Shown here: in pieces, positions 6,821 to 24,130 of the stretch | Layout: each line of letters opens with the position of its first letter | How positions within the stretch are numbered: position 1 is the first letter of the stretch | Assembly (NCBI GenBank): GCA_018820925.1 | Contig: JAHJNJ010000046.1 | Location: forward strand, 1 to 41,701 | Direction: 5' to 3' | DNA: 41,701 nt | Origin: Gammaproteobacteria bacterium | GTDB lineage: Bacteria > Pseudomonadota > Gammaproteobacteria > Burkholderiales > Gallionellaceae | Notes under the pieces: model-generated | The model's database searches: none | Seen by the model: only the letters and a program-made list of their open reading frames with translations | Told to the model about the DNA's origin: nothing | Made by a program: the position numbers and the translations under genes

Positions 6821-7660
6821 TCAGTCCGCATGGAATATCACCTGAACATCCCTGGGCGGTGCGGAATAAGGCGCGGAAGTCACCAGCAGATCCGCGCCGG
6901 CGCACACATAAGCCGATGCGTTGTCCGCATGCACACCGCCTGCCGCAGCAAGCACAACCCGCAGTCCGGCGCTGCCCAGCGCATTGCGGCAGTCCGCCAC
7001 CTCCTCGGGCGTGAATTTCTCCAGTTGCAACACTTCGGTGCCTGCCCTGGCCCAGAGCAGCGCCTCTTCCATGCTTGCGACTTCCACGACCAGTTTCTTT
7101 TCCGGTTCGGCACGCTTGAATCTTGCGACCGTGTCTGCCGGCGTTTCATCCAGATACAGCCGGTGCTCGGCAAACAACAGCAACGATTCCGACAGACCCA
7201 GCCGGTGCATGGTCGCACCGCCCGCCCGCACGGCCTTGACCGACAGCGCCTTGGTGCCCGGCACATTCTTGCGCGTGCAGGCCACCGCCACCGGAGTAGC
7301 TGCTTTCACGATGGCTGCGGTGCTTGTGCTGATCCCGCTCGCCCATTCCACCAGCACCTGCGCCGTTTTCCATGCGCGGTGCAATTCCCGCGCACTGCCC
7401 CGCGCTTCCAGCAGTAGTTCATCTTTGCCGGCTTGTTGTCCGGAATGCGCATGCAAGTCGGCTTTCGCCCCGCACAGGGCAAACAGGCGTGCCGCTTCCT
7501 CGATAGCACACACCAGCATATCTTGCCGGGCACGAAACTCCAGACGCGCGGCGCGTTGCCCGATGCCGGATGTTTCAGTGGTGAGATCGCCGCACTGCAC
7601 GTCGTCGCTCAGCAGGCATGCAAGCTCGTCATCCGTTAGCGCCAAATAACTCATGTTCAT
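6821..7660 (-). CDS. modD: ModD, molybdenum-locus phosphoribosyltransferase-like protein
   Basis: This 279-residue protein has the fold of nicotinate-nucleotide pyrophosphorylase (quinolinate phosphoribosyltransferase). The GDLTTET start, TRKNVPGTKALSVKAV and the final GADLLVTSAPY are characteristic of ModD, which is encoded with molybdate transporters. Its biochemical role remains unclear in the literature; a part in molybdenum use or nucleotide modification has been proposed. It is the last gene of the modABCD group and starts 12 bases after the end of modC. Two ATGs at 7660 and 7654 are possible, and a GAGAA site suits the second slightly better. Confidence 0.9.
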   Translation of the reverse strand: MNMSYLALTDDELACLLSDDVQCGDLTTETSGIGQRAARLEFRARQDMLVCAIEEAARLFALCGAKADLHAHSGQQAGKDELLLEARGSARELHRAWKTAQVLVEWASGISTSTAAIVKAATPVAVACTRKNVPGTKALSVKAVRAGGATMHRLGLSESLLLFAEHRLYLDETPADTVARFKRAEPEKKLVVEVASMEEALLWARAGTEVLQLEKFTPEEVADCRNALGSAGLRVVLAAAGGVHADNASAYVCAGADLLVTSAPYSAPPRDVQVIFHAD

Positions 7661-7672
7661 TTTCTCAATTCA

Positions 7673-8758
7673 TCACGCCATCAAGGCCACACTCTTCACC
7701 TGCGCACAAACATACATCCCCGCAACCAAACCGAGATGGTCGCGCGAGCGGCGCGTGATGCGCGACAGCAACACCTGCGAATCGCCGACCTGCATGCGCA
7801 CGACCACCTTGTCCGGCCCTTCGTCGCGTATTTCCTCGATGCAGGCATTCAGGATGTTGTTGATGCTGGAACCCTGCGGTGCCTGCGTGGCGATGCTTAC
7901 GTCGCGCGCCAGCACGCGGGCGCGCACGCGCGTGCCGAACGGCTGCTCCACCTTGCCCACCCACAGGTGGCCGCCGGAGAAATCCAGCCGGCTCAAATGA
8001 TATTTTTCGTCGTGCTGCGCCACTGCCGCTTCGATCACCGCGCCCGCATCGTCGAAATGCGCAGTCGGCAGATCGAGCCGCGCAAGGGTTTCATGCAGTT
8101 CCCCGCTGGCGATGACTTTGCCTTGATCCAAAAGCACCAGATGATCGGCCAGCCGCGCCACTTCATCCATCGCGTGGCTGACGTAGAGCACAGGGATCTT
8201 CAATTCGCGGTGCAACCGTTCCAGGTACGGCAATATTTCCTGTTTGCTTTTGGTGTCAAGCGCGGAGAGCGGCTCGTCCATGAGCAGGATGCGCGGGCTG
8301 GTGAGCAGCGCGCGACCGATGGCGATGCGCTGGCGTTCACCGCCGGAAAGTTTTCCGGGATCGCCGCGCTCGATGAGATGAGTCAGCCCCAGCCATTCCA
8401 CCACCTGCTCCAGTTGCACTTTGCGCTCGGTCAAAGGCGTACGCCTCAATCCGTATTCCAGATTGGCGCGCACCGACAGATGCGCAAACAGACTGGCTTC
8501 CTGGAACACATAACCCAGCGGACGTTTGTGTGTCGGCATGAAGTCCGTGTCGTTCTGCCAGGTCTCGCCGTTTACATGCAGCGAACCGTTGGCGCGCTCA
8601 AGACCGGCAATGCAGCGTAGCAGCGTGGTCTTGCCGGAACCGGAGGGACCGAACAAGGCGGTGACACCGACAGCGGGCGCACTGAAAGTGGCATCCAGTA
8701 CAAAATCCTCGCGTTGCAGCACAAAGCGGCCCTGAATTTCTCCCGCGCTTCTGTTCAT
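7673..8758 (-). CDS. modC: Molybdate ABC transporter ATP-binding protein ModC
   Basis: The start is the ATG that overlaps the modB stop (ATGA); the open frame continues upstream, but that part lies inside modB. The 361-residue protein has Walker A GPSGSGKT (37-44), signature LSGGERQR (137-144), Walker B ILLMDEP (157-163) and a C-terminal TOBE/Mop domain (about 295-361) that binds oxyanion. These features and the length are those of ModC, which energises molybdate import through ModB. A GGHLW insertion precedes the TOBE domain. Molybdate versus tungstate preference cannot be read from the sequence. Confidence 0.95.
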
Positions 8759-9447
8759 TTGGTCACCTTCGACAATTGGCCACCCGCGAGATACAGGCCG
8801 AGCAGCACGCTGAACGAGAACAGCACCATGAGGCCCGCCAGCACATGCGCCGCGTTGTATTCCATCGCCTCGACATGGCTGTAGATGGCAACCGAAAGCA
8901 CGCGCGTCTCGCCCGGAATATTGCCGCCCAGCATCAGCACCACGCCGAATTCGCCGACGGTATGCGCAAAAGCGAGAATGGTCGCGGTAAGGAAACCGGG
9001 GCGCGCCAGCGGCAGCGCCACGCTGACGAACCGATCCCATGCGCTCGCGCGCAAGGTCGCAGCCACTTCCAGCGGACGCTTGCCCATGGACTCGAATGCG
9101 TTCTGGATCGGTTGCACGGCGAAAGGCAGCGAGAACAGCACGGAGCCGATCACCAGTCCGGCAAAAGTGAAGGGCAATCTGCCGAGATTCAAGGCATGGG
9201 TCAATTCACCCACCGGACCTTGCGGGCCCATCAGCAACAACAAGTAAAAGCCCAGCACGGTGGGCGGCAGCACCAGCGGCAATGCCACCACAGCCGAAGC
9301 CAGCCCCTTGTACCACTTGCGGCTGTGCGACAACCACCACGCGAGCGGTGTCGCGATGAGCAGGAGAAACACCGTGGTAACGCTCGCCAGTTTGAGCGTC
9401 AGCCATACGGATTGCAGGTCGGCGGGGTCCAGTGTCGGCATGGTCAT
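8755..9447 (-). CDS. modB: Molybdate ABC transporter permease ModB
   Basis: The 230-residue inner-membrane protein has about five or six membrane helices and the cytoplasmic EAA-type loop ([22 protein letters not shown]) that contacts Mod[21 protein letters not shown] and [16 protein letters not shown] are strongly conserved in ModB. The gene lies 6 bases after modA and overlaps modC by 4 bases, so the three are translated together. Start alternatives two codons apart (9447 or 9441) do not affect the call. Confidence 0.95.
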
Positions 9448-9453
9448 TCGGGA

Positions 9454-10209
9454 TCAGGGCATTTCATATCCGAAGCTGCGAATGATCGCCGCAGCTTTCT
9501 TGCCTTGCAGGAAAGCCAGGAAGGCTTTCGCCGCTGCCGGGTCTTGCGCTGCGGACAACTGCACGGCGCATTGCTTGATGGCGCTGTATTTGTCTGCGGG
9601 CACGATCCACCACGAACCTTCTGTCACCTTGCCGTCCTTGGTGATCTGCGACAAGGCGACAAAAGCCAGTTCGGCATTGCCGGTGGCGGCAAACTGATAG
9701 GTCTGGGTAATGCTTTCGCCCGTCACCATTTTGCTTTCCACCTTGCTCCACAAACCCATGGCATCCAGCGTTTCCTTTGCCGCCAGGCCGTAGGGGGCGA
9801 GTTTGGGATCGGCATAGGCCAGCTTGTTGAAGTCGCCCTTGCCCAGCACGGCACCCTTGTCGTCCACGAATCCCGGCGTGGCGCTCCACAGCACCAGCTT
9901 GCCCAGCGCGTACACGAAAAGCGAATCCTTGACCGCCAGTCCTTCCTGTTCCAGCAGCTTCGGGTTCTTCTCGTCAGCGGCGAGGAACACGTCGAACGGC
10001 GCACCATTCTTTATCTGGGAGGTGAACTTGCCGCTTGATCCGAAACTCAACTTCACTGTATTGCCGCTTTCCTTTTCAAACTGCGCAGCGATCTGCTGCA
10101 TCGGCGCGGTGAAATTCGCCGCCACCGCCGCATTCACCTCGCCCGCATTCGCCACCTGCACCATCGTTGTCAGCAATGCGCTCAACAAACCCAATTTGAT
10201 CGACTTCAT
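9454..10209 (-). CDS. modA: Molybdate-binding periplasmic protein ModA
   Basis: The 251-residue protein has a signal peptide (about residues 1-22, ending VANA). Ligand-binding stretches of ModA follow: AANFTAPMQQIA, FGSSGKFTSQI and GAPFDVFLAADE. The serines in the first two regions are expected to hold molybdate or tungstate. A GGAG-type ribosome site lies just before the ATG. It delivers the oxyanion to ModBC. A second modA-like gene, alone, occurs at 19952-20716, so two binding proteins may share one transporter. Confidence 0.95.
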   Translation of the reverse strand: MKSIKLGLLSALLTTMVQVANAGEVNAAVAANFTAPMQQIAAQFEKESGNTVKLSFGSSGKFTSQIKNGAPFDVFLAADEKNPKLLEQEGLAVKDSLFVYALGKLVLWSATPGFVDDKGAVLGKGDFNKLAYADPKLAPYGLAAKETLDAMGLWSKVESKMVTGESITQTYQFAATGNAELAFVALSQITKDGKVTEGSWWIVPADKYSAIKQCAVQLSAAQDPAAAKAFLAFLQGKKAAAIIRSFGYEMP

Positions 10210-10332: not shown

Positions 10333-11154
10333 TTACGCATTCACCGCCAAAATCACATGCGATGCCTTGATCAGCGCCGCCGCTTTAACACCTTCCTTCA
10401 ATCCCAGCGACTTGATGCTGTCATTGGTCACGATGGCCGCCACGCTCTTGCCGCCGGACAACTCGATGATCACTTCGCCGTTGACCGCGCCTTCCTGGCA
10501 GCGCACCACCGTGCCGTGCAATTCGTTGCGCGCACTGGTCTTGAAACCGTCGGATGTGGTCACGATGACCCACGGTGCCTTGATCAGCGCATACGCTTCC
10601 GAACCGATCTTCAATCCCAGATGGTTCACGCTCTCGTTGGTGATCACCGCCGCCAGCATGTCGCCGCCGCCGATCTCCAGCACCACCTCGGCGTTGATCG
10701 CGCCCAGCTTGATGCTTTTCACCGTGCCCAGAAACTGGTTGCGTGCGCTCGTCTTCATGTCAAATCTCCTTATCAAATGGTAGTACTCGTCAAAATCGTC
10801 CATCACCGCCGCGAGCTTCTTCAGCACCTGTTCGCGCTCCTGCTCCAGGCGCCGGTATGCCCCGGCTACACGGCGGCCATAAACAGTGAGCGTCGTGCCG
10901 CCGCCTTTCGACCCGCCGGTCTTGCGTTCCACCAGCGGCTGCTCGGAAAGATTGTTGATCGCCTCGACTGCTTCCCAGGCCGCCTTGTAGCTCATGCCCA
11001 TGGCGCTCGCCGCCGCTGTGATCGAACCTGTCGCATCGATACGTTCCAGCAATTCCAGATGATCCCAGCGCCTGCCCTTGGCGATCTTCAACTTGGAGAC
11101 GACACCGGATTCCGTCTTCTTCACCGACTTCTTCTCTGCCACTGATTGAGCCAT
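10333..11154 (-). CDS. modE: Molybdate-responsive transcriptional regulator ModE
   Basis: I chose the ATG after GAGGACAAC; the longer open frame adds 25 residues with no ribosome site. The 273-residue protein has an N-terminal winged helix-turn-helix of the LysR-like ModE type (about residues 25-100, with SITAAASAMGMSYKAAWEAV) and two tandem Mop/TOBE domains (about 138-205 and 210-273). These begin with the repeated TSARN stretches at the start of the two domains. Full-length ModE dimers bind molybdate through the Mop pairs and then bind DNA to repress transporter genes. It heads the modEABCD gene run and is divergent from a TonB receptor with a ModE-like operator in its promoter region. Confidence 0.95.
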   Translation of the reverse strand: MAQSVAEKKSVKKTESGVVSKLKIAKGRRWDHLELLERIDATGSITAAASAMGMSYKAAWEAVEAINNLSEQPLVERKTGGSKGGGTTLTVYGRRVAGAYRRLEQEREQVLKKLAAVMDDFDEYYHLIRRFDMKTSARNQFLGTVKSIKLGAINAEVVLEIGGGDMLAAVITNESVNHLGLKIGSEAYALIKAPWVIVTTSDGFKTSARNELHGTVVRCQEGAVNGEVIIELSGGKSVAAIVTNDSIKSLGLKEGVKAAALIKASHVILAVNA

Positions 11155-11429
11155 GTTGTCCTCACTCGTTATTACCCTGCACTGCCTAACGCTGAGCAAA
11201 AGCGATGCCACCCCGGGCATTTCACCCACTCATCCCCGTCACTACGTTGATTCCCGCGAATTCGATGCACCTGCTGGTACAGCTCCGCAACGCCCTGTTT
11301 TGTAGGTTCCTGAACAAATTGGTGCGTTCGTTACAACCCGGAAGCTACAACGCTCCGGCCCGCAACAACTGAGATCCCGCGCTGTATGGCAATTCGCCGC
11401 GTGGCACGCCCCTTGCTAAAACGGCATTG

Positions 11430-11454
11430 CGTTATGTACCAGACTACATAACCG
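11430..11454. promoter_or_regulatory. ModE operator upstream of TonB receptor (putative)
   Basis: CGTTATGTA, six bases, then TACATAACCG: a perfect 8-base inverted repeat (GTTATGTA/TACATAAC) with the N6 spacing expected of ModE. The left half differs at one base from the E. coli-type half-site CGNTATATA as I remember it. It lies 26 bases before the ATG of the TonB receptor and about 275 bases from the divergent modE start, so it most likely controls the receptor operon. Binding has not been shown. Confidence 0.75.
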
Positions 11455-11480
11455 TTCACATTATTACATAGGAGCAGAAA

Positions 11481-13454
11481 ATGAACACAACCTGGACGGC
11501 AAAACCGCTGTGGCTGGCTTGCATGCTGGCTTTGGCGACATCAGCAGCAGCAGAAAACTTCAGCCTGGGCGAAATCACGGTTACCGCAAGCAATCCGCAG
11601 GTCGGCGAAATCAGCACGGATCAGGTGTCTTCCGTCGTCACCCGCGAGGACATGAAGCAATTCAATCGCGACAATGTCGGCGATGCCTTGAATCTGCTTT
11701 CCGGCGTCACGCTGACGAACAGCGGCATGCGCAATGAAAAAATGATCTACGTGCGCGGTTTCGACGCCCGCCAAGTGCCCTTGTTCATTGATGGCATCCC
11801 GGTGTATGTGCCATATGACGGTTACCTGGACCTGAACCGTTTCACCACCGCCGATCTTTCCTCCATCCAGGTATCCAAGGGTTTCAGTTCGGTGTCCTAC
11901 GGTCCGAATACGCTGGGCGGTGCGATCAACCTGATATCGCGCAAGCCAACACAACACTTCGAGGGGGACGCCAGCATCGGCTTCGCGTCCGGCAGCGAGC
12001 GGCAGGCGCAGACGAATATGGGAACCAACCAGGGGCTGTGGTATCTGCAGGCGGGCGCGTCATATTTGCAAAGCGACGGCTATCCACTTTCATCCAGTTT
12101 CACGCCCACCGCCACCGAGGATGGCGGCTTGCGCAATAACTCCTATCGCAAGGACGACAAGATTTCCGTGAAGCTCGGCCTGACGCCCAATGCCAGCGAC
12201 GAATACTCGCTCAGTTACTACAAACAAAACGGTGAAAAGGGACAGCCGCCTTCCACCGGTGCCGGTGCGCGTTACTGGAAATGGCCGTTCTGGAACAAGA
12301 AGAGTCTGTACTTTGTTTCAAGGACCGCGCTGAGCGATGCCGAAGATATTAAAGTCCGCCTCTACTGGGATAAATTCGATAACGGCCTGGATATCTACAC
12401 CGACGATACCTACTCAACCATTTCCAATCCGGTCGCCAACCGCAGTTCCTATGACGACAGCACGCGCGGCGGATCAGTCGAATTGACGACCAGACGTCTC
12501 CCCGGGCAGGAGATCAAGCTGGTTACCCACTACAAGGTGGACAAGCACATCGCCCGCGATGGCGCTTCGACCATCACCGAATCGTTCAAGGACACACTTT
12601 CTGCTTACGCTGCCGAAGACAATATCTGGATCAGCCCCGCACTGTTGCTGTCCCTGGGCATCACCCGGAGCACGCTAAGCCCGCAGGAAGTCTACAAGAC
12701 CGGCAGTCCGTTCACTTTGCCCGATGCAAAATCAGCTACCAACGGTCAGGCCGGGCTTTTCTACGACGCGAATGAAAGCACCCGCTTCTACGCGACCGTC
12801 GCCCAGAAGTCGCGCCTGCCCACGCTGAAGGATCGCTACTCGGCAAGATTCTCGACCTATATTGAAAACACCGCACTGCGCCCGGAAGAATCGGTCAATT
12901 ACGAGATCGGCTACCAGGGCACTCCCGCACAAGACATCCGGCTCGAAGCGGCGATTTTCTACAGCGATATCACCGACAAAATCCAGACGGTTTACCAGAC
13001 CGGCTCGACTTCCTGCACCACGACCAGCATGTGCCAGATGCAGAACGTCGGCAAGGTGCGCTCCACCGGCGTCGAGCTTGGCTTGCGCAGCCCGCTATCC
13101 GCGGCAATCGAAGTGGGCGGCAATTACACCCTGACCGCGCTCAAAAACGTCAGCGATCCGGCGACCAGACTGACCGGCATCCCGCGTCACAAGCTGACCG
13201 CGCATGCCTTGTATAAAGCGGGCGATGCATTGAACCTCATTACGTTCGCCGAATACAACAGCAGCCGCTGGGCTTCGAACACAGTCGAGCTATCCGGCTA
13301 TACGACGCTGAACCTGAAAGCGGTTTATCGCGCCACCACTGACATCTCGACCGAAGTGGGTGTCAACAACCTGACCGACAGGAATTATTCGCTGGCAGAC
13401 GGCTATCCGAATCCCGGTCGCAGCTATTTCGCCAACGCAACGTTGAAATTCTAG
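11481..13454 (+). CDS. TonB-dependent outer-membrane receptor, ModE-linked
   Basis: The 657-residue protein starts at an ATG with AGGAGCAG before it. A signal peptide (1-24, ending SAAA) is followed by a TonB-box-like GEITVTA (30-36), a plug domain (about 45-155, with VRGFDARQVPLFIDG and GPNTLGGAINLISRKP) and a 22-strand-type beta barrel ending in the aromatic motif SYFANATLKF. Such receptors import scarce ligands, usually siderophores or cobalamin, using TonB energy. The ModE-type operator just upstream and the adjacent mod locus suggest that the ligand is a molybdenum or tungsten species, perhaps a metallophore complex. That is an inference; the barrel itself does not reveal the ligand. Confidence 0.92.
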   Translation: MNTTWTAKPLWLACMLALATSAAAENFSLGEITVTASNPQVGEISTDQVSSVVTREDMKQFNRDNVGDALNLLSGVTLTNSGMRNEKMIYVRGFDARQVPLFIDGIPVYVPYDGYLDLNRFTTADLSSIQVSKGFSSVSYGPNTLGGAINLISRKPTQHFEGDASIGFASGSERQAQTNMGTNQGLWYLQAGASYLQSDGYPLSSSFTPTATEDGGLRNNSYRKDDKISVKLGLTPNASDEYSLSYYKQNGEKGQPPSTGAGARYWKWPFWNKKSLYFVSRTALSDAEDIKVRLYWDKFDNGLDIYTDDTYSTISNPVANRSSYDDSTRGGSVELTTRRLPGQEIKLVTHYKVDKHIARDGASTITESFKDTLSAYAAEDNIWISPALLLSLGITRSTLSPQEVYKTGSPFTLPDAKSATNGQAGLFYDANESTRFYATVAQKSRLPTLKDRYSARFSTYIENTALRPEESVNYEIGYQGTPAQDIRLEAAIFYSDITDKIQTVYQTGSTSCTTTSMCQMQNVGKVRSTGVELGLRSPLSAAIEVGGNYTLTALKNVSDPATRLTGIPRHKLTAHALYKAGDALNLITFAEYNSSRWASNTVELSGYTTLNLKAVYRATTDISTEVGVNNLTDRNYSLADGYPNPGRSYFANATLKF

Positions 13455-13464
13455 GAGTGCAATC

Positions 13465-14742
13465 ATGAGAGCAATTAAATGGATCATGGCCGCGTGTTTG
13501 TTGCTGCTGTCGCAACTGGCCAGTGCCACCGAAAAAGTGGTGGTGCTGTCCAGTTATCCGCAGGAGGTCATCACGCCGTTCGAGGCGGCTTTCGAGGCGG
13601 CCTATCCGCAATACCGCCTGGAAATCCTGTGGAGGCATGGGCGCGATGCGATGACTTACCTGCACCAGCCGCACAGCGCGGTGGATGTGTACTGGACACC
13701 GGCACAACGCAACTTTGCGGTGCTGGCAAAAGAAGGTGCGTTCCGCAAACTGGATATTGACTTGAGCGGCTTGCCGAAAAAAATCGGCGGCTTCCAGATC
13801 TCCGATCCGGACGGCTATTACGTCGCCAGCGAAACGGCAGGATACGGCATGGCCTACCATCCAGCCGAATTGAAACGCATGCAGTTGCCGATCCCGACCG
13901 ACTGGAAGTCGCTGATGTCGCCCGCGTTCAACGGCCATGTCGTGATGCCCGTCCCCTCCAAAGTCGGCTACGCGCCCATGCTGGTGGATACGCTGCTGCA
14001 AGGCTACGGCTGGCAGCAAGGCTGGGATGTGCTGAAGCAGATTGCGGCCAACGCCATCCTGGCCGACACCCCCTCAACATTTATCTCGGATGACGTCGGC
14101 AGCGGGCGCGAAGCAGTGGGCATGACCATGGACTTTTTCGCGCGCTCCGCAATCGCCAACGAAAATCCCCTGCGCTTCACCTATCCCGAAAAAGTCGGCT
14201 ACTCCCCGGCGCACGTGGCCATTTTCCGCGAGGCAAAGAATCTGGACGGCGCACGTGCCTTTGCCAGCTTTGTGCTGTCGGATCAGGGACAGAAGCTGTT
14301 GCTCCATCCCGACATCCGCAAGCTGCCGGTGCGCCCCGCTGTCTACGCGAGCAAGCCCAAAGGCTATTTCGATCCGTTTGCCTCCGCGCAACTGGCCTCG
14401 TATGACTACGATGCAGCGTCCGGCCTGATGCGCCAGGAGCTGATCAGCGCATTGTTCGATGCGCTGATCACGCGCCATCACTTGGAGTTGAAAACAATGT
14501 GGTCGGCAATTCATCAGGCCGAGCAAAAAACCCGCAACGATCCACGTTTGCAGGAAGCACGTACTCACGCCAACTGGCTGCCGCTGACTGCTGCTCAGAC
14601 CAACGATGCCGCGCTCCAGCAAACCTTCATCCAGCGCGACAGCCGTGCCGTAACACTCGAACAGCAGTGGGATACAGAAATCTCCAAACACTACGCGCAA
14701 GCCACACAACTCGCGCAGGCCATACTGGGAGCAAAACCATGA
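13465..14742 (+). CDS. Periplasmic solute-binding protein of ABC type
   Basis: An AGGAG site 7 bases before the ATG supports the start, 10 bases after the receptor gene. The 425-residue protein has a signal peptide (1-22, ending ASA) and a family-1-like solute-binding fold: VVVLSSYPQEVITPFEAAFEAAYP at the N-terminus, AVDVYWTPAQ and AGYGMAYHPAEL resemble iron(III)- or phosphonate-type binders. After about residue 310 it carries an extra helical region of about 100 residues that is not usual for the family. No permease or ATPase is encoded beside it. It may hand its ligand from the TonB receptor to a transporter encoded elsewhere, or to ModBC. The ligand is unknown. Confidence 0.8.
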   Translation: MRAIKWIMAACLLLLSQLASATEKVVVLSSYPQEVITPFEAAFEAAYPQYRLEILWRHGRDAMTYLHQPHSAVDVYWTPAQRNFAVLAKEGAFRKLDIDLSGLPKKIGGFQISDPDGYYVASETAGYGMAYHPAELKRMQLPIPTDWKSLMSPAFNGHVVMPVPSKVGYAPMLVDTLLQGYGWQQGWDVLKQIAANAILADTPSTFISDDVGSGREAVGMTMDFFARSAIANENPLRFTYPEKVGYSPAHVAIFREAKNLDGARAFASFVLSDQGQKLLLHPDIRKLPVRPAVYASKPKGYFDPFASAQLASYDYDAASGLMRQELISALFDALITRHHLELKTMWSAIHQAEQKTRNDPRLQEARTHANWLPLTAAQTNDAALQQTFIQRDSRAVTLEQQWDTEISKHYAQATQLAQAILGAKP

Positions 14743-16196
14743 AACAACAAAAATCAGGCATCTCAAATAGCGGGACTACCGATGTAGGTGCGAATTTATT
14801 CGCACAAAAGCCAAGCCATGTGCGAATGAATTCGCACCTACAAAAAACCCAATCGTGGCTCTTGGGCTTATTACTGATCGCCTTGTCTCTCTCGCAACCT
14901 GCATTCGCAAACGAATCCGACATCACCACGGATAAGGCCACACGCGAGGCCTACCTCCAGGCGATACCGGCGATGCCCGAATCGGATCGTCCGAAATTCA
15001 TCCATGGACGCAGTCTGGTGCGGCAAGTGTGGGTGATCGCGCCCAGCGAGAATCGCGAGATCGCCGGACTAGGCCCCCTGTACAACCGTCTCTCCTGTAT
15101 CGCCTGCCATATCGGCAACGGCCGCGGCTTCGCCCCTGCAACACCACAGGAACCGATGCGCACGATGCTGGTGCGCCTGAGCGTACCGGGCGACGACGGC
15201 CACGGCGGCCCCAAACCGCATGCGGCTTACGGCGGGCAGTTGAACGAGAACGGAGTGCCCGGTGTAACAGGCGAAGGCCGCGCGGAGGTGCGTTTTACCG
15301 AGCATGCAGTCAAGCTCAAAGACGGTACGCAAATCAAATTGCGCAAACCTGTCATCACCTTCGTCGATCTGGCCTATGGCGAATTTCCGCCCGAGATGAT
15401 GACTTCGCCGCGCATCACGCCGCCGCTATTCGGCCTCGGCTTGCTGCAAGCCGTGCCGGAAGCGGACATCGTGGCTTTGGTCGACGCCCCCAAACCCGAA
15501 GGCATCAAGGGCAGAGTTAACCGCGTCTGGGATGAGGAACAGCAAAAAAACGTGCTGGGTCGTTTCGGCTGGAAAGCCAACATGCCCAATTTGCGCCAGC
15601 AGATCGCCGGGGCCTACGTCGGCGACATGGGCATCACCTCGCCGCTGTTTCCGAAAGAGAACTGCACGGCAGCCCAGGGCGCCTGCCGACAATCGCCGTC
15701 TGCCGGAAGTCCGGAGTTGACCAAGGAGCAACTGGACGCTTCCGAGTTCTACCACTTCGCGCTGGCCGCACCGCGCCAGCGTAATGCCAACAACAAGCAA
15801 GTTCAACGCGGCGCGGCACTGTTCAGGCAAGCGCAATGCAGCGCCTGTCACGTGCCGCAATTGAAGACCGGCGATTTCGCACCGCTCCCGGCCCTGTCGC
15901 ACCAGATCATCCGCCCCTATACCGATCTGCTGTTGCATGACATGGGCGAAGCGCTCGCTGACCACAGGCCGGACTACCTGGCAACCGGCCGCGAATGGCG
16001 CACGCCGCCGTTATGGGGAATCGGACTTGCCCGGAAAGTCGATCCGCGCGCCGGATTTCTGCACGACGGACGCGCAAGAACTGTGCTGGAAGCGGTGTTG
16101 TGGCATGACGGGGAAGCTGCAAACGCGGCACAATCAGTCAAAGACATGTCTGCGTCCGACAGAAAGGCACTGACCAAATTTCTGGAATCTTTGTAA
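14739..16196 (+). CDS. Two-haem cytochrome, DHOR (di-haem oxidoreductase) family
   Basis: The ATG overlaps the stop of the solute-binding gene (ATGA), giving 485 residues. Haem sites are CIACH (120-124) and CSACH (367-371), and the sequence between and after them (GLGLLQAVPE, RFGWKANMPNLRQQ, TPPLWGIGLARKV, FLHDGRART) is typical of the DHOR family, often named putative thiol oxidoreductase. The protein is expected in the periplasm. The N-terminus is odd: 60 bases of a palindromic repeat encode residues about 15-34, before the hydrophobic signal (about 40-58, ending PAFA). A second ATG at 14826, inside the repeat, would give a normal signal peptide. Its redox partner and link to metal uptake are unknown. 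Confidence 0.88.
   Translation: MKQQKSGISNSGTTDVGANLFAQKPSHVRMNSHLQKTQSWLLGLLLIALSLSQPAFANESDITTDKATREAYLQAIPAMPESDRPKFIHGRSLVRQVWVIAPSENREIAGLGPLYNRLSCIACHIGNGRGFAPATPQEPMRTMLVRLSVPGDDGHGGPKPHAAYGGQLNENGVPGVTGEGRAEVRFTEHAVKLKDGTQIKLRKPVITFVDLAYGEFPPEMMTSPRITPPLFGLGLLQAVPEADIVALVDAPKPEGIKGRVNRVWDEEQQKNVLGRFGWKANMPNLRQQIAGAYVGDMGITSPLFPKENCTAAQGACRQSPSAGSPELTKEQLDASEFYHFALAAPRQRNANNKQVQRGAALFRQAQCSACHVPQLKTGDFAPLPALSHQIIRPYTDLLLHDMGEALADHRPDYLATGREWRTPPLWGIGLARKVDPRAGFLHDGRARTVLEAVLWHDGEAANAAQSVKDMSASDRKALTKFLESL
14783..14842. repeat. 60-bp palindromic repeat inside a coding frame
   Basis: The arms begin TGTAGGTGCGAATT and end AATTCGCACCTACA, around a short AAAAGCCAAGCCAT centre. The unit is exactly 60 bases, so it keeps the reading frame of the cytochrome gene. 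It resembles the GTAGGTGCGAATTCATTCGCAC repeats that are spread between genes in many proteobacteria. Here it sits in the 5' coding part, where a hairpin in the mRNA would cover a possible start codon. Confidence 0.85.
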
Positions 16197-19951: not shown

Positions 19952-20716
19952 TCACGGCACTTCATACCCGAACCCGCGCATCACCGCTTGTGCCTTGTCG
20001 CTCTTCAAAAAATCCAGGAACGCCTTCGCTGCCGTTGGATCTTTCGCGCCGGTCAACAGCACCGCGCTCTGGCGAACAGGTTGATGCATTCCGGGAGGGA
20101 TGATCCAGCTCGAACCCGAAATCACCTTGCCGTCGCGCATCACCTGCGACAGCGCAACAAGCGCCAGGTCGGCCTTCTCGGTCGCAGCAAGCTGGTAGGT
20201 CAGCGTGACGTTCTCGCCCTTGGTCAGTTTTCTCTGTATCGAATTCCACATCGTCAGTTTCGTCAGTGTCTCTTTCGCGGCCACACCGTATGGCGAAAAA
20301 ATGGGATTCGCGATGGCCAGCATGTTGAAATTGCCCTTGTTGAGTACCGCCCCCTTCTCGTCCACATACTCGGGCTGCACACTCCACAACACCAGCTTGC
20401 CGGTGGCATAGACGAAACGCGAGCCGCCGACCGCAAAACCATCCTGCATCAATTGCTTCGGCTTTTCCTCGTCCGCGCAAAGAAATACATCAAACTGCGC
20501 CCCGCCCCTGATTTGCGCATACAGCTTGCCGCTGGCGCCCGTGCTGACCTTCAGCGTGTGCCCGCCCTCTTTCCGGAACAACGGCGCCAGCCGCTCCAGC
20601 GGCGCGGCAAAATCCGAAGACACCGCCACGCTCACCTCGGCCGCCCGCAGCGGCGAGCTTGTCAGCCCGCACAGCAACAGGATAGTGAAGATAGCGCCGC
20701 GTAATGAAATATGCAT
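19952..20716 (-). CDS. modA: Second ModA-like molybdate-binding protein, orphan
   Basis: The ATG with AGGAGCTAACG before it was chosen over a longer frame. The 254-residue protein has a signal peptide (about 1-24, ending LRAAE) and ModA-like ligand regions VSSDFAAPLERLA, STGASGKLYAQI and GAQFDVFLCADEEKP. It resembles the first ModA of this window (9454-10209) through its whole length, including AKAFLDFLKSDKAQAVMRGFGYEVP against the other's AKAFLAFLQGKKAAAIIRSFGYEMP. No modB or modC accompanies it. It may feed the same ModBC with different affinity or select another oxyanion such as tungstate. No ModE-like inverted repeat was seen before it. Confidence 0.88.
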   Translation of the reverse strand: MHISLRGAIFTILLLCGLTSSPLRAAEVSVAVSSDFAAPLERLAPLFRKEGGHTLKVSTGASGKLYAQIRGGAQFDVFLCADEEKPKQLMQDGFAVGGSRFVYATGKLVLWSVQPEYVDEKGAVLNKGNFNMLAIANPIFSPYGVAAKETLTKLTMWNSIQRKLTKGENVTLTYQLAATEKADLALVALSQVMRDGKVISGSSWIIPPGMHQPVRQSAVLLTGAKDPTAAKAFLDFLKSDKAQAVMRGFGYEVP

Positions 20717-20900
20717 CGTTAGCTCCTGACTTTGATTGGTGCAATGATAACAAGCCGGATGAAGTCCGGCGCAAAGTAATAGGCCGTTTGCCATATTGAC
20801 CATGCACCGCTGAGCAGGTACGGTACGTGCGATCCGATACTGACAGGCTGCCGGGCCATATTTAAGGCATATTGAGCAACATCAACCAGGGGGGAAAGCC

Positions 20901-22872: not shown

Positions 22873-23022
22873 ATGAAAAGAAGCATCGGTGTGTTGCTGC
22901 TGGGTATCTGGCTCATCTTTACGGGTCTGGCACACCTTCTCCATCTGAGTTTTTCGGGCATGGGTACGATCATGGCTGTCATTGCCACTGTGGCAGGGGT
23001 ACTGCTTATCATGGGGCTGTAA
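22873..23022 (+). CDS. 49-residue membrane peptide
   Basis: An AAGGAG site 8 bases before the ATG and a clean stop define this short gene. The peptide is almost wholly hydrophobic: a basic start MKRS, one helix (about 5-24), a short LSFSGMG turn, and a second helix to the end. It would form a two-helix hairpin in the inner membrane. No family is recognised. The next gene begins 40 bases later with its own ribosome site. Confidence 0.7.
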   Translation: MKRSIGVLLLGIWLIFTGLAHLLHLSFSGMGTIMAVIATVAGVLLIMGL

Positions 23023-23062
23023 CTGCGCCGCTTTAACCGCTTGGCATTATTGGAGTTCAGTC

Positions 23063-24130
23063 TTGCAATCAAAGTATCTCTGTTTGGGAATTGTCCTGCT
23101 GCTCCTCGGGTGCGGGGAAGAACGTAACGATTGGCAGAAATCATCCGTTGTCCCCGTCAAGCCGGGTTCCACCGTGCAGATTCGCGTTGCTCAAGCCGTC
23201 AACCCGCGACTTCCGCGCATGTCTCCCGGCCAAATCCAGATCATGCTGGCTTCCGCCCAGTTGACCGTCCTGAAAAATTTCGGGGTCTATGTGGAATTTA
23301 CCGAAGCGCCGGAAATCGGGATCGATCAATTGTTTGCACTCATACCGCCATCCGTCAAAGAAGCGCGTCTCGAATCCATCTATGATTTCAAATCCGGCAG
23401 CGGCGACAAACAGAAACTTGCCGCAGGCATACTCACGACACTGACCGAGCGCGGCACAAAACTGAAGGATGCGCTGGCCTTCGCAGCGCCCTATCTGCCG
23501 ACGGGCGCAAATCCGCAAGACTTGAAGGCATTGTCCGATTTGCTGGCCAACACCATGCTGGAAAGGCTGGAGCAATGGCGTCATGTCAACGCGCCCGACG
23601 GCACTCCCGTGCTCGACGCGTCGCCGTATAACGAATGGGTATATTGGGACACACTGGGTTATGGCAAGCTGCCGTATGACGTGGTGATCACCAACCAGTT
23701 TGTTGCGAGTGCCGAATACTACGGCGTCGATATCCATTCCGCCATTCGCGGCGGCGTAACCGTGGGCACCACGTCATACAGCCGCACCGGCAAGTACGGC
23801 TCGTATGTCTTCTGGAGCACGTTCCCGTTTTCGGATAATTCCGAGGCCAGCATAAGCATGCGCGGCAACGATCAATATTCCGCTGCGGATGCCGCCGAGT
23901 TGTCGGGAGCCTATCTGGCGCACGAGATCGGCCATTTGCTGTTGCAACTGGGGCACCCGTTCGGCCAGAAGGCCTGCGTCATGAATCCCGTCAGCATGTT
24001 GAAGTTCCGGCAATGGTTCTTCCAGGTCTACGGTGCGGGCTGCCTGCTGGGCAGCCGGCCGGAAATGAAACCGGGCGCGATTCCTCCCGTTTACAATGCG
24101 GAATGGGTGCGCATGACCCAAGAACAGTAA
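23063..24130 (+). CDS. Lipoprotein with variant HExxH metallopeptidase site
   Basis: I start at a TTG with GGAG 8 bases before it, which gives a proper lipoprotein signal ending LLLGC (Cys17); no ATG start gives this. The 355-residue protein carries HEIGHLLLQLGHP at residues 287-299. H287, E288 and H291 form a zincin core, and H298 could be the third ligand. A CVMNPVS stretch (305-311) resembles the Met-turn of metzincins. In classical metzincins (HExxHxxGxxH) the third His is one residue closer, so this is a variant. The body has YDVVITNQFVAS and a long Ile/Val-rich region. Probably an envelope-anchored protease; substrate unknown. Confidence 0.75.
   Translation: MQSKYLCLGIVLLLLGCGEERNDWQKSSVVPVKPGSTVQIRVAQAVNPRLPRMSPGQIQIMLASAQLTVLKNFGVYVEFTEAPEIGIDQLFALIPPSVKEARLESIYDFKSGSGDKQKLAAGILTTLTERGTKLKDALAFAAPYLPTGANPQDLKALSDLLANTMLERLEQWRHVNAPDGTPVLDASPYNEWVYWDTLGYGKLPYDVVITNQFVASAEYYGVDIHSAIRGGVTVGTTSYSRTGKYGSYVFWSTFPFSDNSEASISMRGNDQYSAADAAELSGAYLAHEIGHLLLQLGHPFGQKACVMNPVSMLKFRQWFFQVYGAGCLLGSRPEMKPGAIPPVYNAEWVRMTQEQ

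Follow-up and report, generated by a model that had tools for sequence, protein, structure and literature searches.

A TonB receptor operon beside modE in a Gallionellaceae genome: predicted molybdenum scavenging for nitrogenase under NifA and ModE

Metal uptake by TonB receptors is already known, and receptor genes have been described near molybdate or nitrogen-fixation genes in some bacteria. Here we analyse an operon for a TonB-dependent receptor, a solute-binding protein and a di-haem cytochrome, transcribed divergently from modE-modABCD, in a 41,701-bp stretch of DNA called the window below (contig JAHJNJ010000046.1 of assembly GCA_018820925.1, positions 1 to 41,701 of the forward strand, from a gammaproteobacterium of the Gallionellaceae). 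How does it compare with the systems described so far? A. chroococcum likewise carries genes for a TonB receptor, an ABC transporter, modG, modE/G and modA1B1C1 in a nif-linked region, and these are absent from the A. vinelandii cluster; in the passages available the report makes an annotation remark, without operator or NifA analysis (PMC4465626). A. vinelandii itself has sigma-54-dependent metal uptake genes, TonB receptors and modA2B2C2, that are on when Mo and V are absent, but their activator is VnfA1, which acts only without Mo and V, and modA2B2C2 is, in the part of the account available, not apparently ModE-regulated (PMC9542535). The Fe-Mo cluster of A. ferrooxidans, too, has outer-membrane receptors and a ModA-like protein in the vicinity of nif genes; the figure of that study shows a Fur box, and a joint iron and molybdate system was proposed (PMC2631029). 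Molybdate delivery at the outer membrane is served in P. aeruginosa by ModA and IcmP, a route in which, as far as the excerpt goes, the binding protein is secreted through the H2 type VI secretion system (H2-T6SS) and no TonB receptor takes part (PMC11734730). Azoarcus BH72 induces modE, modA1B1C1 and modD under nitrogen fixation (PMC8467165), and the prrA-modD-yc73-fepC cluster of E. coli has been put forward as a proposed or possible iron uptake system (PMC1890555, PMC12928451).

In the open-licence literature searched, and in those parts of it that were accessible, no ModE box was reported before a TonB receptor, although Studholme and Pau 2003 may list such sites, and no TonB receptor was reported under joint control of NifA and ModE. 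Nor was a TonB receptor shown there to carry molybdenum, the nearest being the annotation remark on A. chroococcum (PMC4465626) and the ModA/IcmP route (PMC11734730). Within this literature the receptor clade, its operator and the double switch described below look new.

Could this operon form the outer-membrane part of a molybdenum supply for nitrogenase? From its promoters, its operator and its relatives we consider it probable (about 0.7) that the locus would scavenge molybdenum for nitrogenase across the outer membrane, with NifA turning it on and ModE with bound molybdate (Mo-ModE) turning it off. Upstream of the receptor gene lies a sigma-54 (-24/-12) promoter, TGGCACGCCCCTTGCT (11402 to 11417, plus strand), that agrees with the consensus at 11/11 positions, and modE has a divergent one, TGGCATCGCTTTTGCT (11195 to 11210, minus strand; 10/11), 41 bp before its start. 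About midway between the two stands a NifA-type upstream activator site, TGT-N10-ACA (TGTAGGTTCCTGAACA; 11301 to 11316, no strand), upstream of both; its distance to the -24 element is 101 bp on the receptor side and 106 bp on the modE side. TGT-N10-ACA is the kind of site from which NifA activates sigma-54 promoters, and these were scored against the sigma-54 consensus, whose signature is TGGCAC/TTGC. All 6 readable same-genus loci (the window, L018-L021 and L023) have a receptor promoter of 11/11, a modE promoter of 10/11 and one central NifA-type site, at 100-112 bp on the receptor side and 104-106 bp on the modE side; in the alignment of these six upstream regions the TGGCAC and TTGC blocks are invariant. 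When the window was shuffled 100 times, a promoter of 11/11 with a NifA-type site arose once in all (mean 0.01). A sigma-70 promoter was also sought in the intergenic region; its one match overlaps the ATG and is not believed.

The ModE-type operator, CGTTATGTA-N6-TACATAACC (11430 to 11453 with flanks, no strand), begins 14 bp past the -12 GC of the receptor promoter. Its core, GTTATGTA-CCAGAC-TACATAAC at 11431-11452, has two perfect 8-base arms, and the element as quoted in the original prediction ends at 11454, 26 bases before the receptor ATG at 11481; the perfect inverted repeat with N6 spacing, divergent from modE, was thus correctly described. ModE with molybdate represses from such boxes. 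This is the sole match in the window at three mismatches or fewer, and 100 window shuffles gave a mean of 0.03 such matches, three of them holding one. By two patterns it is also the only match with fewer than three mismatches in the genome (3.44 Mb), where the remaining ModE-type matches have three mismatches and are not commoner than those of the reversed pattern (11 matches in all versus 24). The window operator agrees at 13 of 16 positions with a printed ModE consensus, CGNTATATA-N6-TATATANCG (PMC545781). All six readable same-genus loci have the box (two of them in a form with one or two changes), although much of the flank differs; it lies on the receptor side only and starts 14-16 bp downstream of the -12 GC. 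At that distance it would sit at the likely start of receptor transcription, so we read it as a predicted ModE operator of the receptor transcript alone.

We compared 38 receptor loci: 10 from 100 relatives (that of the window included), 9 of 23 plasmid records, 7 new ones from 398 genomes of the phylum and 12 new ones from 399 genomes of the order. L027, a fragment of genome G018 with no upstream sequence, was left out, as were L028-L031, copies of L018-L021. Boxes were sought between positions -400 and +150 relative to the first ATG, at a threshold of at least 12/16 to the printed consensus, with 30 TonB receptors from 18 receptor-bearing genomes as controls (the strand of L079 and L080 set by the longer frame). 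Such a box precedes 26 of the 38 family receptors and none of the controls, the best of which scores 11 (Fisher, 7e-10). The count rises to 30/38 when the first gene of the receptor operon is also considered; at 13/16 or better it is 19/38 for receptors, 23/38 with operon starts, and zero for controls. The 15 nearest non-family receptors have no box either (0/15, best score 10; three of their frames reach the locus edge). The related-genome comparison that the original prediction had proposed therefore came out in its favour. One perfect-arm box, CGTTATGTA-N6-TACATAACG, accompanies a family receptor on a P. aeruginosa plasmid (L014, 5820-8381), where the receptor gene overlaps that of a small molybdopterin-binding oxidoreductase and adjoins moaA and narIJH.

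The receptor is a member of a distinct clade: a branch with support 100 separates 37/37 family receptors from 29 controls in a 66-row tree (quick method, SH-aLRT support only; R_L050 and C_L075 excluded for length). Across 15 genomes, E values of the family member are 4.1e-89 or better, and the next receptor reaches 6.9e-21 at best. ModA, ModB, ModD or ModE is encoded within about 8 kb of 19/38 family receptors versus 0/20 controls (p 6e-5), and still of 13/31 after removal of seven close relatives (p 6e-4). Controls numbered 30 in the box test, 20 here and 43 in the promoter test (L079 and L080 dropped, the 15 nearest receptors added), all taken from receptor-bearing genomes. A modE gene (TIGR00637, 1e-20 or better) is found in 10/11 receptor-bearing relatives as opposed to 39/89 others (Fisher, 0.0035), and the sole receptor-bearing relative without a match is a genome that is 62% complete.

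Is the promoter arrangement tied to nitrogen fixation? Defined as a sigma-54 promoter of at least 10/11 with TGT-N10-ACA 60-180 bp upstream, it occurs before 9/38 family receptors, 0/43 controls and in 2/7600 shuffles. Among the 29 genomes whose promoter could be read, a set that does not include the nine plasmid loci, it is found in 9/10 genomes with nifH versus 0/19 without (p 1e-6), and outside the genus in 3/4 versus 0/19 (p 0.0023). For 19 genomes nifH was forecast from the promoters, as present in G501 and G627 and absent from the 17 others; it was found in G501, G627 and G260, and the other 16 lacked it, which makes two correct and one miss. In the relatives, nifH is over cut-off in 8/11 receptor-bearing genomes versus 24/89 others, and it lies 12-17 kb from the receptor gene (start to start, same contig) in G014, G020, G007 and G023. 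The genome of the window has NifA (TIGR01817, 679.6 bits versus a cut-off of 528.85), NifL, NifD, NifK, NifE and NifN over NCBIfam cut-offs, and nifH, whose promoter served as a positive control and shows the same geometry (10/11, site at 113 bp).

How would such a double switch work? During nitrogen fixation NifA would switch on both modE-modABCD and the receptor operon, and with plentiful molybdate Mo-ModE would block the receptor operon alone. The receptor would then be made only during nitrogen fixation with molybdenum short; because both operons would come on with nitrogen fixation and molybdate would shut only one, this would be when ModABC alone undersupplies nitrogenase. Powered by TonB, the receptor would import a complex of molybdenum (or tungsten) through the outer membrane; in the periplasm, cytochrome and binding protein would help to free the metal or to carry it, and ModABC would take it into the cell. 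That the metal is released by redox change is a guess. ModE-controlled, molybdenum-linked uptake across the outer membrane had been foreseen by the original prediction, and boxes, mod neighbours, the clade and the co-occurrence of modE support this; the control by nitrogen fixation, which changes the meaning of the operon, was missed, and molybdenum and tungsten are not separated.

The receptor keeps changing company. SBP_bac_6 proteins are encoded in 14 of the 38 neighbourhoods, FecB-like proteins in 14 (versus 1/20 controls) and ModA and ModB in 10, in overlapping sets; DHOR is found in 13, or in 14 with L018, whose gene the overlap rule drops, and a methyltransferase in 5, of which four also have modD. 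Elsewhere, receptors of this clade come with a MolBCA-like transporter or modABC replacing binding protein and cytochrome. As partner genes differ between genomes, receptor and operator stay and the inner parts change. The operon of E. coli, the prrA-modD-yc73-fepC cluster (L017, 1354-7827; L154, 1497-7971), resembles that of the window in its family receptor and in a 15/16 ModE box, which stands before the first gene, in the type strain too. It has modD within the operon, as have Proteus and G263, and differs in that a FecBCD-like transporter (FecB-, FecC- and FepC-like genes) and a methyltransferase replace binding protein and cytochrome. Among solved structures its permease is closest to HI1471, and its binding protein has a weaker match in HI_1472; both belong to HI1470-1472 (MolBCA), a molybdate importer of H. 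influenzae. The E. coli receptor is covered to at least 80% in 2094 of 5426 complete genomes. More tentatively, and with somewhat less than even odds, a TonB clade spread over several proteobacterial classes may import chelator-bound molybdenum through interchangeable inner parts, namely modABC, a MolBCA-like transporter, or a binding protein with a metal-freeing di-haem cytochrome, under the rule 'NifA and not Mo-ModE' in diazotrophs, with the E. coli cluster as its enteric branch.

A receptor swapped at a fixed locus would fit a changed organic ligand, and phage pressure could give the same picture: in G023 (L023, 8001-10010) and the G018 fragment (L027, 34-774) the receptor is about 46-47% identical to that of the window and binding protein and cytochrome are 80-82% identical, with a perfect box in G023. 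In Paracoccus, a 35% identical relative of the binding protein has phosphatase genes and a pyridoxal-phosphate gene around it, which fits, weakly, an oxyanion-type ligand. On two Azospirillum plasmids (L015, 9995-10843; L153, 13807-14694) a gene for a TonB protein follows that of the receptor.

Several observations weigh against molybdenum scavenging for nitrogenase. The 38 loci are not independent, six being from one genus. Eight of them (L024, L039, L049, L050, L096, L098, L101 and L102) lack a 12/16 box, and those of L094 and L104 are weak 12/16 boxes (shuffle p about 0.05 and 0.12). Boxes can be missed under the first-ATG rule, as in L050, whose frame opens far upstream; anchored by homology it reaches 12/16, yet it is counted as boxless. 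Two of the eight, L024 and L098, have the NifA/sigma-54 arrangement instead. The original prediction had named many homologues without modE and box as evidence against it, and the comparison mostly turned out otherwise. G260 has nifH and lacks, by the rule, the NifA arrangement. The 425-aa binding protein has no match to TIGR01256, the NCBIfam ModA model, and matches only TIGR03261, below cut-off; its structure model is poor overall (mean pLDDT 45) with a helical C-terminal part, and that of the cytochrome is too poor for use (mean pLDDT 31). Relatives of the cytochrome adjoin imelysin genes in both non-Azospirillum loci looked at. In E. coli the partner binding protein matches 4pag best, HI_1472 coming second, and the best NCBIfam scores of the partner genes are to B12 and iron families, below cut-off.

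Could the operon serve another purpose? It could be an iron-siderophore receptor operon repressed by Mo-ModE, serving the iron demand of nitrogenase or some other need. The description of the E. coli relative as possible iron uptake (PMC1890555, PMC12928451) favours this; in the main text available for a study of the Fur regulon of a uropathogen there is no match to modD or prrA, which settles nothing (PMC7157518). The best solved matches of the receptor are the colicin I (CirA) and ferripyoverdine receptors. No NCBIfam substrate-class model is over its cut-off among the best 25 of 28 matches, each below its own, and the best of these is a siderophore-receptor subfamily, TIGR01783, at 166.6 bits versus 223.5. 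The binding protein, too, has solved relatives named Fe3+ transport components, next to a pyridoxal-phosphate-binding protein, and the imelysins beside the cytochrome family are linked to iron. We nonetheless regard iron as unlikely: ModE boxes and mod genes accompany the receptor clade in genomes without nifH too, the operons of E. coli, Proteus and G263 include modD, and HI1471, to which the E. coli permease is most closely related, is part of a molybdate importer.

Slightly less likely again is that the system takes up tungsten, or an organic cofactor or chelator for its own sake. ModE and ModA accept tungstate too, and the methyltransferase of five neighbourhoods could act on an organic ligand, but in diazotrophs the operon is tied to the genes of Mo-nitrogenase. 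A chance inverted repeat before an ordinary receptor would account for the three shuffles that held a match, yet it is highly improbable, as the box is conserved in same-genus loci with differing flanks and recurs before most of the distant homologues; we rejected it on these grounds together with its uniqueness in the genome, the shuffles as a whole and the absence of boxes from 30 controls. If molybdenum scavenging by this clade is true, nitrogenase would have its own molybdenum salvage route, and nitrogen fixation would be tied to molybdenum scavenging through a promoter that can be read. The clade, marked by sequence, operator and mod neighbours, would supply candidate molybdenum receptors in many genera, the prrA-modD cluster of E. 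coli would gain a testable role other than iron, and the entry into diazotrophs of molybdenum bound to natural chelators would become directly testable.

The genes of the operon are as originally predicted, and no permease gene is among them. The receptor (11481 to 13454, plus strand, 657 aa) has Plug (PF07715) and beta-barrel (PF00593) domains, both over cut-off. The binding protein (13465 to 14742, plus strand) matches SBP_bac_6 best, and SBP_bac_11, which modA matches too, also passes its cut-off (29.8 versus 25). The cytochrome (14739 to 16196, plus strand) is a di-haem oxidoreductase (DHOR): it matches PF06537 and carries one CxxCH motif at residue 120 and a second at residue 367. On the minus strand follow modE (10333 to 11154; HTH and two TOBE/Mop domains), modA (9454 to 10209), modB (8755 to 9447), modC (7673 to 8758) and modD (6821 to 7660; quinolinate phosphoribosyltransferase-like). 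Four near homologues of the locus were seen, three in genomes that bear the name Sideroxydans and one in Sideroxyarcus, which makes this group the probable origin of the window.

A second modA (19952 to 20725, minus strand), with no permease gene adjoining, is possibly an extra periplasmic carrier; it is also found near the locus in four relatives (L019, L020, L023 and L027). An Rfam scan of the window gave no match over threshold. At 22982-24130 the window encodes a 382-aa protein with a lipoprotein-like start and a HEIGH motif, without a Pfam match at 1e-5. At 14785-14840, within the start of the cytochrome gene as listed, TAGGTGCGAATTNATTCGCAC and its reverse complement form a repeated head-to-head palindrome; the 21-mer has 56 exact copies in the genome. 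The true cytochrome start may be 14826, the listed start running through the repeated palindrome, and a translated element of this kind seems to be present also at the starts of the binding protein and cytochrome of L019.

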